A DNA stretch of 42,626 nucleotides from Gemmatimonadaceae bacterium (GTDB taxonomy: Bacteria; Gemmatimonadota; Gemmatimonadetes; Gemmatimonadales; Gemmatimonadaceae): positions 1 through 42,626 of the forward strand of contig JADGQS010000011.1 of NCBI GenBank assembly GCA_017881585.1. The letters run 5' to 3'. Of the stretch, positions 2,143 to 19,690 are shown in pieces. Under the pieces are notes generated by a model. The model was not told the origin of the DNA. It searched no databases and saw only the letters and a list, made by a program, of their open reading frames with translations. Within the stretch, counting starts at the first letter, position 1, and every line of letters starts with the position of its first letter. The position numbers and the translations under genes were made by a program.

Positions 2143-4970
2143 TAGAAGGTGTACCTCACCCGCGTCGCGATGAGGCGGCCGATCTCCGGCACGCCCACGA
2201 AGGTCGCGACGCGCGTGTCGAGGAGATCCGACACGTTGAGCGACCAGGTCACGTTCGTCGCGAACGGCAGGCGCCAAGCAGCGCCGACGTCGATCAACGT
2301 GTTGGCCGGCAGTGGCGCGTAAGCAACGGCGCCAACCGGGTCCGTGTTCGGGTTGAACGAGTTGAACAGTCCCGAGTTCACCGGGAACGCGTCCGCGTAA
2401 CGCACGGTCGAGTTGAAAGACCAGCCGCTGGCATCGTTCGTGTAGGTCGCCGTGCCCGAAGCGCGGTGCTTCGGTGAGTTCGACATCAGTGCATTGGTCG
2501 CGCCGCCGATCTGCGGGAAGACGTTCTGTCCGATGTGCGAGTACTGGCCTGCGAGCATCCACCGGTCGTTGACCTGGTAGTCGATAGCGACATCCGCGCC
2601 GCGCACGTCGATTTCTCCCAAGCCATTCGTGTACGACGCGATGATCGACTGGTCGGGAGCGAGCTTGGTGTTGGTGAAGGCGAGTGCGCCCTGGGGCAGC
2701 GCCGCCATGACCGGAATCAGCGCCGGAAGTGCCTGCGCGACGACCCCCTGCGCCTGGGCCAGCGAATACCCGCCGGCCATGAGTCCCTGCACGAGCGCTG
2801 TGCCGAGATACGAGGTGAGCTTGGCCGGATCCATGAACACGAGCGGATTGATCTGGCCGATCGGGACGCCGACATCGCCGCGCAGCTGATACCAGAGGTC
2901 GACTGCGACGCGGAGCCGCTGGCCGATGATGCCCTTGTATCCGACCTCCCACGTCGTGTTGAACGCGGCGTGGAGGGGCTCGATGTCGGCCACGCTGCTG
3001 ACCGGAACGGCGATCGCCCCGATGCGCAGGACCGAGCCCACCTGGGCGTCGGTCGGGCGCAGCGACGTCAGGATCGGATTCAGCGACGTCAGCAGGCCGA
3101 TGAACCCGGCCTTCTGCGCCGCGCCGCCGAACGTCGACGCCGGAAGTGCGTTCGCGACGCTGAGGAACTGCGACATGAATCCGGGGAAGGCGTTCGCCGA
3201 CGTCGACGAGACGCTGGCCGTCGGTCCGCCCGCGACCCACGGCGAGTGCATGCATAGGCCGCTGTTGACGGTCGCGTCGCAGGTGCGGGCGAACTGCCAG
3301 CCGGCCTTCGACGGGTTGCCGATGGCGCGCAGCGCGAAGCCCGGCGCCTGGTTCGGGTTCACGATCTGGTCGAGCATGTACGAGAAGCTGGCCGGCGAGC
3401 TGAACGCGCGGCTGAACGTGAAGCGGAAGTTGTTGTTCTCGTCCGCCTTGTACACGAAGGCCACGCGCGGCGAGAACTGCGACCCGGCGAGCCGGTCCGT
3501 CTGGTCACCGCGGATTGCCGACATGAAGTCGAGCTTCGGCGTCAGCGGAATGGTGGCCTGAAGGTAGACGCCCTGCTCCGTAATGTCGGTCGACCCCTCG
3601 TTGCGCCCGAAGATCGTCGAATCCGAGTAGGGGTGGGTCTTGATGTAGTCGACGCCAGCCACCAGCGCGGCCTTGCCCAGCTGGAACGCCTGCTGGAGCT
3701 GCGCGACGGTGACGGTCGACTGGTCGACCACCGGAAGGCCCGTGCGCAGGTAGAACGTGCCGGAGGTGTCTCTCGGGTTGCTGCTGCCCGAGTTGTTCGC
3801 GTTGTAGAACACCTGCGCGAAGAACTTCTTGTACCGAAAGCGGTCCTGCAGGCTCAGGTAGGACCAGTTCTTGGCCTGCACCGCACCGAACGCGGTCGTG
3901 ATGTCGATGCCGCTCAGGATCTTCGAGTAGCCGGCGTTGATGATGTTGTCGAAGTCTGCGTTCGGCTTGTAGTCGAGGCGGAACTCGCCGGAGTACTTCT
4001 TGTCCGCGAAGTCACGTTGCAGTGTTTGTCCGGAACGGGGGCTGCCCGCGATGGTCGGGTACACTGCCGGCTCGTTCGGATCGTTGTACTTCCAGTCGGT
4101 CGCCGTGAAATACGAGCCCGAGAACTTGTATCCCCACTTGTTGTCGCCGAATACGCCGGCCGTGCGGAACGAACCCTGCAGCATCGCGTTGCCGCCGCCG
4201 TCCACCGAGATCGTGGTGCCCTTCGAGGTGAACGGCGACTTGGTGATGATATGCAGCACGCCGTCAGCGGCGTTGGGGCCGTAGAGTGCCGCAGCCGGGC
4301 CGTTCACGACCTCGATGCGCTCGATGTCGTCGCTCGTGCCGGTGAACAGCGCGGGCACGTTCACGCGCAGCGACGGAACGCCGGAAAAGCGGTAGTCCTG
4401 CAGCACCAGCATCGAGCCGGAGAAGGCGTTGTTGAAGCCGCGCGAAACGATGTTGGACTGCATCATGCCGCCCGTCGAGACCGACAGGCCGGGCGTGGAC
4501 TTCAGATAGTCGGCTATGGTGACCGCGGGAACGTTCGTGATCTGCTCCGAGTTCACCACGGAAATCGACGCGGGCGCGTCGAGGATCTTCTCCGGCGTGG
4601 CGCCGCGCGTAACGGTCGTGACCACTTCATTGAGTCTCGTGGTGATCTCCGTCATCGCGATGTCGAGGGTGACGGACCCGGAGACGGTCACGCCGTCGGC
4701 ACGCTTGGCCGAGAAGCCGATCCGCGTGGCGGTGACGGCGTACGTGCCGGCCGCGAGGCCGGTGATCCGGTAAGTGCCGTTGTCGCCGGACACCACCGTG
4801 GCCGCCGTTCGCAATCCGGACACCGCCGTGATGCGCGCACCAACGACCGGCGCCCCTCCTTCCGCATTGCTGACCTTCCCCGCAATACTGCCCGTCTGAG
4901 CCTCGGCGCTTCCCGCGAACGCGCAGAGCGCAGCGAGTACGGAAAGCCGGCTGACGAAACGTCGAACCAT
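2142..4970 (-). CDS. TonB-dependent receptor with N-terminal carboxypeptidase-regulatory-like domain
   Basis: MVRRFVSRLSVLAALCAFAGSAEAQTGSIAGKVSNAEGGAPVVGARITAV..; plug motif APASISVVNSEQITNVPAVTIADYLKSTPGLSV; C-terminal VRYTF. Confidence 0.92.
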   Translation of the reverse strand: MVRRFVSRLSVLAALCAFAGSAEAQTGSIAGKVSNAEGGAPVVGARITAVSGLRTAATVVSGDNGTYRITGLAAGTYAVTATRIGFSAKRADGVTVSGSVTLDIAMTEITTRLNEVVTTVTRGATPEKILDAPASISVVNSEQITNVPAVTIADYLKSTPGLSVSTGGMMQSNIVSRGFNNAFSGSMLVLQDYRFSGVPSLRVNVPALFTGTSDDIERIEVVNGPAAALYGPNAADGVLHIITKSPFTSKGTTISVDGGGNAMLQGSFRTAGVFGDNKWGYKFSGSYFTATDWKYNDPNEPAVYPTIAGSPRSGQTLQRDFADKKYSGEFRLDYKPNADFDNIINAGYSKILSGIDITTAFGAVQAKNWSYLSLQDRFRYKKFFAQVFYNANNSGSSNPRDTSGTFYLRTGLPVVDQSTVTVAQLQQAFQLGKAALVAGVDYIKTHPYSDSTIFGRNEGSTDITEQGVYLQATIPLTPKLDFMSAIRGDQTDRLAGSQFSPRVAFVYKADENNNFRFTFSRAFSSPASFSYMLDQIVNPNQAPGFALRAIGNPSKAGWQFARTCDATVNSGLCMHSPWVAGGPTASVSSTSANAFPGFMSQFLSVANALPASTFGGAAQKAGFIGLLTSLNPILTSLRPTDAQVGSVLRIGAIAVPVSSVADIEPLHAAFNTTWEVGYKGIIGQRLRVAVDLWYQLRGDVGVPIGQINPLVFMDPAKLTSYLGTALVQGLMAGGYSLAQAQGVVAQALPALIPVMAALPQGALAFTNTKLAPDQSIIASYTNGLGEIDVRGADVAIDYQVNDRWMLAGQYSHIGQNVFPQIGGATNALMSNSPKHRASGTATYTNDASGWSFNSTVRYADAFPVNSGLFNSFNPNTDPVGAVAYAPLPANTLIDVGAAWRLPFATNVTWSLNVSDLLDTRVATFVGVPEIGRLIATRVRYTF

Positions 4971-11761: not shown

Positions 11762-11937
11762 TGTGAGATGGGAGTTCTGAGAGAAGTGGCGAGAGACGCG
11801 ACCTGCTCAGAAGTGGCGAGAGCTCCCCACTGCCCACTCGCCACTCGGTTCTCCCCACTTCCCACTCACCCTTGCCACTTCCCCCTGGTCTCGCCACTCG
11901 CCACTGAACTCGCCACTGAACTCGCCACTCAAGTCTG
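11762..11937. repeat. heptamer-type repeat array (cgccact-like units), inverted left arm (gaagtggcgagag)
   Basis: tccccac tgcccac tcgccac tcggttc tccccac ttcccac ... tcgccac tcgccac tgaac tcgccac tgaac tcgccac. Confidence 0.85.
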
Positions 11938-12987
11938 GAGCGCCGCCGGTTGCTGCTGCGTGAGACAGTGCAGCGTGCCGAGCCCCCATACCAGATCGAC
12001 CGAATGGATTCCGACGATCTCCCGCCCCGGGAATAGCGCGGCGAGAGTGTCCAGCGCGACCCGGTCGTTCGCATCATTGAACGTCGGCACGATCACCACT
12101 CCATTCGCGACGTAGAAATTCGCATAGCTCGCCGGCAGCCGCTGCCCTTCCATCATCACCGCGCGTGGATATGGAAGCGTTACCACGCGCAGCTCCTCAC
12201 CCGTCGCCCCCCGCGCACCCTTGAGCCGCTTCAGATTGTCGAGCGATCGACGGTGATTTTCGTCGGCGGGGTCTTCTTCGTGTGCGAGCACCATCGTGCC
12301 GGGCGCGACGAAGCGCGCGATATCGTCCACGTGGCCGTGGGTGTCGTCTCCCACACAGCCTTCACCGAGCCAGATCGTCTTCGAGATGCCGAGCGCATCG
12401 GCGAACACGCGCTCGTACTCCGGGCGGCCGAGTCCGGGGTTTCGCACCTGCGCATCGGACAGCAGCCACTCCTCCGTCACGAGCATCGTGCCGAGCCCGT
12501 CGGTCTCGATGCCGCCGCCCTCGAGGATCACCCGGCCCTTTCCGTCAGGTCGTCGCGGCTCGCGCAGCGCGAGTCCCGTGTGCCGCGACACCGCCGCGCC
12601 GACGTTCTCGTCGTGCGCGTAGTTGTCGTACTTCGCCCACGCGTTGAATCCCCAGCGCACCAGCTCCACCGCGCCCGCGCCGTTCAGCACCGCGGTCGGC
12701 GCGGAGTCGCGGAGCCACACACGATCGGTCGGGCAGAGATGCAGGCGATAGCGGGCCGAATCCACGCCGTGCGCATCGAGGCAGTGCTTGGCATTGTCGC
12801 GAACCGCCCCGGTATTACACAGGACTTCGACGCGCTCGTGCCGGTGCAGCGTGCGCACGATCTCCGCGTACACCCACGGAATCGGCTCGAACTTCCCCGG
12901 CCAGTCGGGCTCGTGGTGCGGCCACGCAATCCACGTCGCGTCGTGCCGTTCCCATTCGGCGGGCCAGCGCAATCCCGTCGCTGTCAT
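11929..12987 (-). CDS. aguA: agmatine deiminase
   Basis: RWPAEWERHDATWIAWPHHEPDWPGKFEPIPWVYAEIVR..DRVWLRDSAPTAV..EGGGIETDGLGTML..EGCVGDDTHGHVDDIARFV. Confidence 0.92.
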   Translation of the reverse strand: MTATGLRWPAEWERHDATWIAWPHHEPDWPGKFEPIPWVYAEIVRTLHRHERVEVLCNTGAVRDNAKHCLDAHGVDSARYRLHLCPTDRVWLRDSAPTAVLNGAGAVELVRWGFNAWAKYDNYAHDENVGAAVSRHTGLALREPRRPDGKGRVILEGGGIETDGLGTMLVTEEWLLSDAQVRNPGLGRPEYERVFADALGISKTIWLGEGCVGDDTHGHVDDIARFVAPGTMVLAHEEDPADENHRRSLDNLKRLKGARGATGEELRVVTLPYPRAVMMEGQRLPASYANFYVANGVVIVPTFNDANDRVALDTLAALFPGREIVGIHSVDLVWGLGTLHCLTQQQPAALQT

Positions 12988-13895
12988 CCCATCCAGCGGT
13001 TCAGGATCGGCCCGTACGCGTCGATCCGCCGGTCGCGCAGGAACGGCCAATTGCGCCGCGTCGACTCGATCAGCGAGAGATCGCACGATGCGACGATGAT
13101 CGCCGGATCGGTGCCGGCCTCGGCGATCATCCGTCCGAACGGATCGCACACGAACGAGTGCCCGAAGAACTCGAGTCCCTGCGTGAGCGGCTCCGGTTCG
13201 AAGCCCGCGCGGTTCGTCGCGGCCACGAACACGCCGTTGGCGATCGCATGCGCGCGCTGCGCCGTGCGCCATGCCTCCAGTTGCGCGTCGCCCCATTCCG
13301 CCTTTTCTGCGGGATGCCAGCCGATCGCCGTCGGATAGAACAGGATCTCCGCGCCGAGCAGCGACGTGATGCGCGCTGCCTCCGGATACCACTGGTCCCA
13401 GCAGATGAGCACGCCGATGGTTCCATAGCGCGTCTTCCAGACCTTGAATCCGCTCGCCGACTGCGGCCCATCCGATTCCGCATCGCCGGGCGCGAAATAG
13501 TACTTCTCCTCGAACATCGGATCGTGCGGGATGTGCATCTTGCGGTAGACACCGAGCAGGGAGCCGTCGGCGTCGATCACGGCGGCGGAGTTGCGGTAGA
13601 TGCCCGGCCCCTGGCGCTCGTACATCGGCACGATCAACACGACCTGCAGTTCCGCAGCGAGCGCGCGCAGCACTTCGGTGGTGGCGCCGGGAATCGGCTC
13701 GGCGAAGTTGAAGTACTCCTGCTTGAGCGACTTGCAGAAGTACGGCGCGTTGAAGAGTTCCTTGAGGCAGATGATCTGCGCGCCGCGGCCGGCGGCATCG
13801 CGGATGCGCGCGATGGTCGCCGTGAGGGTCTGCGTCTGGTCGCCGGTGACGGCGTCCTGGATGAGCCCGATCGTGACGTGCGTTCTGGGAGTCAT
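12984..13895 (-). CDS. aguB: N-carbamoylputrescine amidase (carbon-nitrogen hydrolase)
   Basis: VTIGLIQDAV..IICLKELFNAPYFCKSLKQEYFNFAEPIPG..RKMHIPHDPMFEEKYYFAPGD..GVLICWDQWYPEAAR; 4-bp overlap with aguA. Confidence 0.92.
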   Translation of the reverse strand: MTPRTHVTIGLIQDAVTGDQTQTLTATIARIRDAAGRGAQIICLKELFNAPYFCKSLKQEYFNFAEPIPGATTEVLRALAAELQVVLIVPMYERQGPGIYRNSAAVIDADGSLLGVYRKMHIPHDPMFEEKYYFAPGDAESDGPQSASGFKVWKTRYGTIGVLICWDQWYPEAARITSLLGAEILFYPTAIGWHPAEKAEWGDAQLEAWRTAQRAHAIANGVFVAATNRAGFEPEPLTQGLEFFGHSFVCDPFGRMIAEAGTDPAIIVASCDLSLIESTRRNWPFLRDRRIDAYGPILNRWMG

Positions 13896-13921: not shown

Positions 13922-13946
13922 AGGCCGGTGCGCTATGCACCGGCCT
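13922..13946 (-). terminator. putative rho-independent terminator hairpin after the peroxiredoxin pair
   Basis: aggccggtgc-gctat-gcaccggcct, perfect 10-bp stem; on minus strand followed by cacttttcatc. Confidence 0.5.
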
Positions 13947-13951
13947 GACTT

Positions 13952-13994
13952 TGTCGTTCTTCGGTCCCTCCGTCTTCGGTCTTCTCTCCTCTAC
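13952..13994. repeat. heptamer-type repeat (cttcggt words) at 3' end of peroxiredoxin gene
   Basis: cgttctt cggtccc tccgtctt cggtctt ctctcct. Confidence 0.6.
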
Positions 13995-14563
13995 GGCTTC
14001 CCGGCGTTCCCCTTCATCGCGGTGGCGACCGCGCTCCCGAGCTCGGTGTACGAGTCCCCCACGAGTTCCTTGAACTCGTCCATCACGTGCGCGATCCTCC
14101 CGTCAGGACCGACGACGAACAGGACGCGCCTGGCCGCGTTGAACAGCGGGTACTTCACGTCGTACAGCTTCACTACCTTTGCGTCGGGATCGCTCGCGAA
14201 GTACACCGGGAATCGCGAGTCGCGCGCCCAGTTGAATTGCACGGTGTCGTCATCGGTGCTGATGCCGATCACCGCGACGCCCTTGCCGTTGTTGAAGATC
14301 GTGGCGTACTGATCACGGTACGCCTCCATTTGAACCGTTCAGCCTTTTGTCCGCGCCTTTGGAAAGAAGGCGAGCACGACGGTCTGGCCGCGGAAATCGG
14401 CGAGGTGGATCGGCTTCGGGAGGAGGCCGTCCTTGGTGGAGCCCTTCAGCGTGAAGTCGGGAGCCATCTCACCGACTTTTGGGCTCTGCGCGCGCAGACG
14501 CCCGGCCGCCACCGCGACGAGCGCGGTGACGGCGAGGGCGACGGCTGCGGCGCGCGAAATCAC
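13991..14563 (-). CDS. putative selenocysteine-containing peroxiredoxin (AhpC/TSA, PrxQ/BCP-like); in-frame TGA (14341-14339) read as Sec at codon 75
   Basis: ORFs 14563..14339 and 14329..13991 are in the same frame, separated only by TGA ACG GTT CAA ATG. KARTKG-[TGA]-TVQMEAYRDQ aligns with KARTKG-C-TAQMTTYRDQ of the adjacent paralog. SECIS-like hairpin follows. Confidence 0.78.
14303..14324 (-). promoter_or_regulatory. candidate bacterial SECIS hairpin
   Basis: Minus strand GGCGTAC-CGTGATCA-GTACGCC, 7-bp perfect stem, 8-nt loop with G at loop position 2; loop begins 21 nt after the TGA. Confidence 0.65.
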
Positions 14564-15135
14564 TTTGCACCCGAGGCTTTCTTGACGGCGCTGCCGAGAT
14601 CGGTGTAGGCGTCGTCGACCATCGGATTGAACGGCTTCGCGGTGTAGGCGATGCGTCCGTCCGGACCGACGACGTACAACAGACGGTTCTCGACCGGTCG
14701 CCCCTCGACGTACGCGCCGTAAAGCTTGCCGGCATCACCCTTCATGTCGCTCGCGAACATCATCGGCAGATTCGCCTCTTTCGCCCATGCGGCCGTGGTC
14801 GTATCGGCGTCCATGCTGATCCCGATCACCGTGATGCCCTTGCCCCCGTTGAAGAGGGTGGCCCACTGGTCGCGATACGTGGTCATCTGCGCCGTGCAGC
14901 CCTTGGTGCGGGCCTTCGGAAAGAAGGCCACGACGACGGTCTGACCCTTCAGCTTGGACAGCGTGATGGGTGCCTTCATAACCCCATCGATGGTGGCGCC
15001 GGGGAGGGTGAAATCCGGCGCCATCTCGCCAACCTTCGGCCCGACTTCCGGCTGTGTCGCCGGCACTTGGGCATGGGCCATGGTGACGGACGTAACGAGC
15101 GCGGACGCGAGAACTGTCGCGTTTCGATGCAGCAT
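14560..15135 (-). CDS. peroxiredoxin (Cys form, PrxQ/BCP-like), secreted
   Basis: VGPKVGEMAPDFTLPGATIDG..VVVAFFPKARTKGCTAQMTTYRDQWATLFNGGKGITVIGISMD. Confidence 0.9.
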   Translation of the reverse strand: MLHRNATVLASALVTSVTMAHAQVPATQPEVGPKVGEMAPDFTLPGATIDGVMKAPITLSKLKGQTVVVAFFPKARTKGCTAQMTTYRDQWATLFNGGKGITVIGISMDADTTTAAWAKEANLPMMFASDMKGDAGKLYGAYVEGRPVENRLLYVVGPDGRIAYTAKPFNPMVDDAYTDLGSAVKKASGAK

Positions 15136-18529: not shown

Positions 18530-18560
18530 TTGTTCGGTCTTCGGTCTTCGGTCTTCTTAT
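18530..18560. repeat. heptamer repeat (ggtcttc x3) between acnA and patatin gene
   Basis: gttgttc ggtcttc ggtcttc ggtcttc ttattcc. Confidence 0.85.
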
Positions 18561-19690
18561 TCCGGCTCGATCTTTCGTTCCATCGTCAGCGTACGGACGT
18601 TCCCTTCGACCACCGTCACCTGAATCGCGTCGGTGGGGCACTGGTGGATGAAATCGCCGTCCGCGCGCGACCACTCGAGCGGCGATTCGAGCACACGCGC
18701 TTTGTCCTCGGCGTCCATCGCCATGAGATCCGGCGCGAGCGTGACGCAAAGCGTGCAGCCGATGCATTTCTCGCGGATGACCGTGAGTTCGATCGTGCGC
18801 CGCGGATAGACGCCGCCGGCGGACGACAGCGCCTCGCCGGCGCGGTCGAGCGCGTCGTGCGCAGCCGCGTACCCCGCGTCGATCATCTTTCGGGTGGAGG
18901 CGAAGCTGAACCAGTTATAGTGCCACACCGGTGGACGCACGAGCAGCAGCGGTGGGCCGGCCCACGTCGCGAGCTGCGAGACCTGCAGCGACTTCATCAT
19001 GGTCTGCGCGGCGCGCATGTAGATCGCCGCGAACCCCTTGTCCTTGATGCGGCGCGCGGTGGCCATGCTCGAACTGCCCACGTCGACGCCGATCACGGCG
19101 TCCATGCCCTGCACGGCGATCGCGTTCGGCAGGTTGTCCATCACGCCGCCGTCCACGCAGGTGCGGCCGGCGATCACGCGTGGCGGAAAGAAGCCCGGCA
19201 GGGCGCACGACGCGTACACGGCGTCGGCCACCAGGACGTCCTGCAGTCCAGGCAATCCCCAAATGACCTGGGCGCCGCGCTCGAGGTCAACGGTGCTCAC
19301 GAGCAGCGGAACCTTCAAAGAGCGAAACGTCACCGGCGGCACGATGTCGCGCACCACCGCGTCGAGCGGGCCGGCGAGGTACAGCGACGGCGAGAGCATC
19401 CGCTTCGTGACCATGTGCAGGCGGTCGATGCGGAAGAGATCCCGCTTCGTGAGCGCGAGCGCGCGGCGCTCCATCTCGTCCACCGGCATCCCGCTCGCAT
19501 GCGCCGCCGCGATCAGCGAGCCGATGCTGGTGCCAGCCACCAGCGCGGGACGGATTCCCCGCTCCTCGAAGGCGCGCAGCACCCCGATGTGCGCGAACCC
19601 CTTCAGTCCACCGCCTCCGAGGACGAGCGCCAGGCGCTCGGGGAAGGCCGTCTTGACGTGTGTGGCGGGCGGGGTGGCTGCGGGAGACAT
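18557..19690 (-). CDS. patatin-like phospholipase with C-terminal ferredoxin-like 4Fe-4S domain
   Basis: LVLGGGGLKGFAHIGVLRAFEERGIRPALVAGTSIGSLIAAA; DGGVMDN; C-terminal EKCIGCTLCVTLAPDLMAMD..FIHQCPTDAIQV. Confidence 0.88.
   Translation of the reverse strand: MSPAATPPATHVKTAFPERLALVLGGGGLKGFAHIGVLRAFEERGIRPALVAGTSIGSLIAAAHASGMPVDEMERRALALTKRDLFRIDRLHMVTKRMLSPSLYLAGPLDAVVRDIVPPVTFRSLKVPLLVSTVDLERGAQVIWGLPGLQDVLVADAVYASCALPGFFPPRVIAGRTCVDGGVMDNLPNAIAVQGMDAVIGVDVGSSSMATARRIKDKGFAAIYMRAAQTMMKSLQVSQLATWAGPPLLLVRPPVWHYNWFSFASTRKMIDAGYAAAHDALDRAGEALSSAGGVYPRRTIELTVIREKCIGCTLCVTLAPDLMAMDAEDKARVLESPLEWSRADGDFIHQCPTDAIQVTVVEGNVRTLTMERKIEPE

Follow-up and report, generated by a model that had tools for sequence, protein, structure and literature searches.

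The window analyzed here is a 42,626-nt stretch of Gemmatimonadaceae DNA belonging to a 3.09-Mb MAG (240 contigs, 90% complete). On its minus strand, positions 13991-14563 form a reading frame of 190 residues that starts at a GTG codon (14563-14561), stops at a TAG codon (13993-13991) and is interrupted only once, by a TGA at 14341-14339, which is what a preliminary description of this DNA had claimed and what translation with TGA read as selenocysteine (Sec, U) reproduces. The context of the interruption is FFPKARTKG-[TGA]-TVQMEAYRDQ, in which the TGA, residue U75, supplies the final position of the peroxidatic motif P68-x-x-x-T72-x-x-U75 of a peroxiredoxin (Prx). The P68 and T72 codons lie at 14360-14362 and 14348-14350, respectively, and T72 occupies a nearly invariant column of the alignment of homologs (108/110 Sec forms; see below). 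R146 (14126-14128) occupies an invariant column and is presumably the catalytic Arg, by analogy with peroxiredoxins in general. P68, T72, U75 and R146 together make up the PxxxT(S)xxC/U motif with its accompanying Arg.

Directly upstream on the same strand lies a Cys paralog of 191 amino acids (14560-15135; 53% identity), which, as described earlier, has Cys at the matching position, encoded by TGC. Its TGA stop codon (14562-14560) and the GTG start codon of the Sec gene (14563-14561) share the sequence GTGA at 14560-14563. The proposed Sec/Cys tandem with a 4-nt overlap stood, such a GTGA or ATGA overlap being found in nine Cys-Sec genomes of the genus (g1), with two more genomes keeping the overlap although both copies are Cys forms; the ATGA ascribed to the window did not stand, since the window has GTGA and ATGA is present in two relatives. 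Retention of the 4-nt overlap is consistent with translational coupling of the Sec gene to its upstream paralog, which probably operates in g1. The tandem pair is essentially confined to this one genus and is not a feature of the family.

The pair is followed by a candidate intrinsic terminator (13922-13946, minus strand; 10-pair stem, T-rich tail), found in a scan in which the count of such elements did not exceed chance expectation. Directly downstream of the Sec gene, positions 11929-13895 carry genes for a Porphyromonas-type arginine/agmatine deiminase and a carbon-nitrogen hydrolase, apparently an agmatine-to-putrescine pair, and the hydrolase neighbor is also found in relatives. The conserved neighborhood was rejected as a pointer to a partner reductase, since its recognizable genes, for aconitase and carbon-nitrogen hydrolase, reflect shared synteny and are not redox partners. 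Elsewhere in the window (18557-19690), a patatin-like phospholipase and, at its C terminus, a 4Fe-4S ferredoxin domain are joined in a single chain.

Both profile and fold place the Sec protein in the AhpC/TSA peroxiredoxin superfamily. It matches the Pfam families AhpC-TSA (PF00578) with 97.9 bits (cut-off 26) and Redoxin with 62.2 bits, and its AlphaFold2 model, computed from a 75-sequence alignment with Sec replaced by Cys, shows a Prx fold with a mean pLDDT of 93.4, in which U75 lies close to the beginning of a helix at residues 73-84. The solved structures nearest to this model are BCP, Prx1 and Bcp4 (Foldseek E ~1e-14 for BCP and Prx1). The N terminus is hydrophobic, ends in ..RLRAQ/S and is modeled as a helix at residues 4-22; residues ~1-26 (14486-14563) are a predicted signal peptide that would be cleaved off, and the protein is probably exported. 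No Cys occurs elsewhere in the window protein or in 109 of 110 Sec relatives, which makes it most likely that the enzyme runs a 1-Sec cycle and draws on an external reductant.

One line of support for the selenoprotein reading comes from the homologs. Six-frame searching located the protein in 249 of 288 genomes of the order; about 130 loci were fetched, and the aligned codon was TGA in 110 distinct genes and TGC or TGT in 35 Cys homologs. Hence an in-frame UGA aligned with the Cys of homologs is conserved across species, as is characteristic of bacterial selenoproteins, and it falls at the peroxidatic position where the preliminary description had located it. A second collection of relatives, drawn from named Gemmatimonadota MAGs, yielded 77 TGA and 12 Cys codons and included a TGA gene in one Longimicrobiales MAG; many of its genomes are probably identical to those of the first set under public names, so that the two sets are not additive, and because the scan was partly seeded with the peptide QMEAYRDQ its amino acid sequences are biased while its silent sites are not. 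Recurrence of the codon in 110 distinct genes excludes a sequencing error. The intact Cys paralog directly upstream could instead indicate a nonsense pseudogene, in which TGC became TGA after duplication and the upstream copy does the work, but many of the 110 genes have no upstream Cys copy and all the same keep an intact frame after the TGA. Close relatives (81-91% protein identity) likewise retain both the TGA and the downstream frame, in place of the TGC and decaying sequence that the preliminary description had envisaged for a pseudogene, and such a gene is refuted by conservation of the two across families f1-f3 and beyond. With the covariation of the adjacent hairpin and the presence of the Sec machinery (both below) also against it, decay after duplication retains hardly any probability. 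What looks like a stop codon within 13991-14563 is thus almost certainly the code for an active-site selenocysteine, and the gene product an intact antioxidant enzyme.

Downstream of the UGA lies a predicted SECIS hairpin (14303-14324, minus strand), which consists of a 7-bp stem, GGCGUAC/GUACGCC, and an 8-nt loop, CGUGAUCA (14310-14317), that begins 21 nt after the UGA and has G at position 2, in every respect as first described. These values and a folding energy of -10.3 kcal/mol all lie within the limits given for bacterial SECIS elements, i.e., a distance of 16-37 nt from the UGA, a stem of 4-16 bp, a loop of 3-9 nt with G among its first two positions and an MFE <= -7.5 kcal/mol (PMC13188914). 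Folding of the single sequence stands out only to a moderate degree (z=-3.2 for a 22-mer picked by eye, z=-1.37 for 51 nt), and it is the comparative evidence, not this folding, that gives the hairpin its significance. All seven stem pairs are formed in 109/110 Sec genes compared with 1/35 Cys genes, and RNAalifold predicts exactly the 7-bp stem in the Sec genes and nothing comparable in the Cys genes. The codons GCG TAC CGT GAT CAG TAC GC are almost invariant in Sec genes, third positions included, whereas the same codons vary in Cys genes. The outer stem pair, which links the third bases of an E/N/D/H codon and an Ala codon, is G-C in 79 Sec genes, C-G in 16, U-A in 13, A-U in 1 and unpaired in 1; as these types vary in a compensatory manner, pairing is maintained across amino acid changes. 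Single compensatory changes also occur at two inner pairs (loci L028 and L054). Among 26 distinct sequences, 99.5% of cells pair, as against 7.7-47.8% when the pairing is slid, and the covariation score is 0.219 compared with 0.059 after shuffling (0/500). Relatives at the level of the class often have A-A in place of the outer pair, and their core is 6 bp. At the protein level, nearly all Sec forms read AYRDQYA, whereas Cys forms read SYRDRYA, TYRDQWA, SYRDKYA and the like; the RNA hairpin thus appears to dictate this stretch of protein. A search of Rfam with the hairpin region returned no match, and when the genome of the window was searched with a model of the element for further genes with the same hairpin, Prx alone scored well. 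The next match (contig C3, E=0.53) was rejected, having no in-frame TGA upstream. In one genome (G133, L049), tandem peroxiredoxin copies both carry TGA and the hairpin and form a Sec/Sec rather than a Cys/Sec pair.

Insertion of Sec further requires a decoding apparatus, and all four of its genes are present in the genome, where lack of selA, selB and tRNA-Sec had been named by the preliminary description as a ground for abandoning the selenoprotein reading: selA on contig C79 (549 bits), selB on C171 (331.5 bits, C-terminal part included), selD on C161 (381 bits) and, at the 3' end of selD, tRNA-Sec (selC; 77.4 bits; called SeC with anticodon TCA by ARAGORN). The selD open frame extends to 4387 and thereby runs into the beginning of the tRNA-Sec gene, which occupies 4344-4440 (L238:3338-4440). 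With this, each observation named beforehand as speaking against a selenoprotein was looked for and did not materialize, and the candidate reading is supported. The same genome holds a second selenoprotein gene, encoding formate dehydrogenase alpha (fdhA; L261, G000:C151:28057-29925), with TGA at SCNRT[U]HAPSV, which we take to be the canonical Sec site as in E. coli FdhF, and with an E. coli-like GGUCU-loop hairpin downstream of the TGA. This gene serves as an internal control, because of which the case for Sec insertion in the organism does not depend on the peroxiredoxin alone. An fdhA with an internal TGA also occurs in five other genomes (G128, G132, G137, G049 and G282), the site itself having been read only for L259-L261. 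The UGA might instead be read through by a near-cognate tRNA-Trp or be reassigned genome-wide, a proposal considered here from codon use at the peroxiredoxin site and in fdhA, with nothing specific found in its favor. UGA acts as a normal stop nearby, where it ends the upstream paralog, the peroxiredoxin codon exchanges with Cys codons only, and tRNA-Sec and selB are present and co-occur with the gene, all of which makes such a reading very improbable.

Across the order, the distribution of the element follows that of selB. A covariance model of the SECIS element hit 170 of the 288 genomes at E<1e-10; 149 genomes have both the element and selB, 21 the element only, 38 selB only and 80 neither (Fisher p=1.7e-22, to be read as the strength of an association among related, non-independent genomes). 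Several of the 21 genomes with a SECIS gene and no selB hit are incomplete MAGs, in which absence of selB is weak evidence; G219, G286 and G009, however, are 98-99% complete and count against decoding by SelB. Eight genomes gave weaker model hits (2e-10 to 7.5e-6), of which seven are Cys forms and one (G074) is a true TGA gene, none with a selB hit. In genus g31 the five Cys genomes (G236, G239, G242, G248 and G251) are precisely the five without selB. G128 and G129 have the Cys form yet keep selB, and G128 also retains the fdhA with internal TGA. In G092, the gene (L244) is a Cys form with no selB hit in the genome and a partly decayed SECIS element, GAA GCG TAC CGG GAG CAG TAT GCC, which likely reflects a recent Sec-to-Cys change. 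On the protein tree, the Sec/Cys label takes eight changes and a single all-Cys clade is rejected (p-AU 0.008); therefore, Sec and Cys have probably been exchanged more than once, with two independent contrasts on well-supported branches, too few for a p-value.

The exchange is accompanied by a difference in the motif itself. Pro is present in all 35 Cys copies, whereas the 110 Sec copies have Pro (46), Tyr (31), Phe (28), Ile (4) or Val (1) at this position, and in the second collection Pro occurs in 12/12 Cys compared with 26/77 Sec genes. Genus g5, which has no selB, carries a Cys form with Pro, although it is nested within a clade of Sec forms that lack Pro (SH-aLRT 100). These patterns, drawn from few independent contrasts, suggest the hypothesis that Sec relaxes the need for an otherwise near-universal catalytic Pro. 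They also bear on whether the protein, with Sec inserted, is a peroxidase or, at least in Pro-less members, a thiol/selenol oxidoreductase or sensor built on a Prx fold. PxxxTxxU is broken in 64/110 Sec forms, a resolving Cys is lacking and the window protein reaches the cut-off of none of the NCBIfam peroxiredoxin models that it matches; this second function is nonetheless rather unlikely for a protein that retains P68, T72, U75 and R146 and whose closest solved structures are BCP/Prx peroxidases.

All computational criteria that were applied identify the window protein as a selenoprotein of the peroxiredoxin superfamily. Sec peroxiredoxins are a known selenoprotein class, listed in a 2026 review as "Peroxiredoxin (Prx), PF00578, TxxU" (PMC13188914), to which the selenocysteine peroxiredoxin PrxU of Eubacterium acidaminophilum belongs (PMC13188914, PMC9312934). 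The window protein shares with PrxU the AhpC/TSA fold and Sec at the peroxidatic position of PxxxTxxU, but it reaches only 46.7 bits on the NCBIfam model NF040737 (peroxi_PrxU; cut-off 270), and its family differs in having an apparent signal peptide, a single redox residue, Gemmatimonadota as hosts and, in most members, no Pro. Its best relatives in sequence and fold are PrxQ/BCP proteins (NCBIfam PRK09437; PDB 2ywn, 3drn and 3hjp), from which it is set apart by Sec, by apparent export, by having no resolving Cys five positions beyond the peroxidatic one and by a score of 72.2 bits on NF006960 (PRK09437; cut-off 140). It is thus neither PrxU nor BCP as NCBIfam defines them. With selenoproteins of the E. 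coli fdhF/FdhA type, whose SECIS has a GGUCU loop and one of which is the fdhA of the same genome, it would share UGA decoding by SelB; the two hairpins differ, the Prx element having a straight 7-bp stem and its own loop 21 nt from the UGA and the fdhA element GGUCU ~18 nt from the UGA, and SelB presumably recognizes both. Gemmatimonadota are not mentioned in the selenoprotein reviews and surveys searched, the literature searched gave no account of a phylum-wide Sec-peroxiredoxin subfamily, and a text search, with most subscription papers and bioRxiv outside its scope, found no relevant paper on Gemmatimonadota selenoproteins.

Taken together, we put at roughly 96% the probability that the gene specifies a functional 1-Sec peroxiredoxin destined for export and that its UGA is read by SelB with Sec-tRNA(Sec) by means of the hairpin. 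The codon conservation, the SECIS covariation, the Sec machinery, the co-occurrence with selB and the predicted fold are results of the analysis, which this reading explains best; the peroxidase chemistry, the export, the reductant and the coupling are inferred. SelB and Sec-tRNA(Sec), directed by the hairpin at 14324-14303, would decode the UGA at 14341-14339 as selenocysteine. The selenol, alongside T72 and, probably, R146 in the pocket of the PxxxTxxU motif, would reduce peroxide and become a selenenic acid, which, given that the protein has no other Cys, would be reduced by an external thiol or a partner protein.

Whether the family as a whole amounts to more is evenly poised: it may constitute a phylum-wide group of exported 1-Sec peroxiredoxins, so far undescribed, in which Sec relaxed the need for Pro (PxxxTxxC to [YFIV]xxxTxxU) and the SECIS hairpin fixes AYRDQYA, and in which loss of SelB brings back Cys and Pro, as in g5. 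If so, the family would be an experiment of nature that shows what an enzyme gains from Sec. The Sec/Cys swaps that occur naturally, together with the coupled SelB losses and the link between Sec and loss of Pro, offer a direct test of why evolution keeps selenium in some enzymes. The near-invariant Prx element does not resemble that of fdhA in this genome and makes a good test case for the recognition of different hairpins by SelB. Finally, Gemmatimonadota are widespread in soil, lakes and groundwater, and automatic annotation likely breaks the gene at its TGA, so that a very common antioxidant enzyme of this phylum is easily missed.
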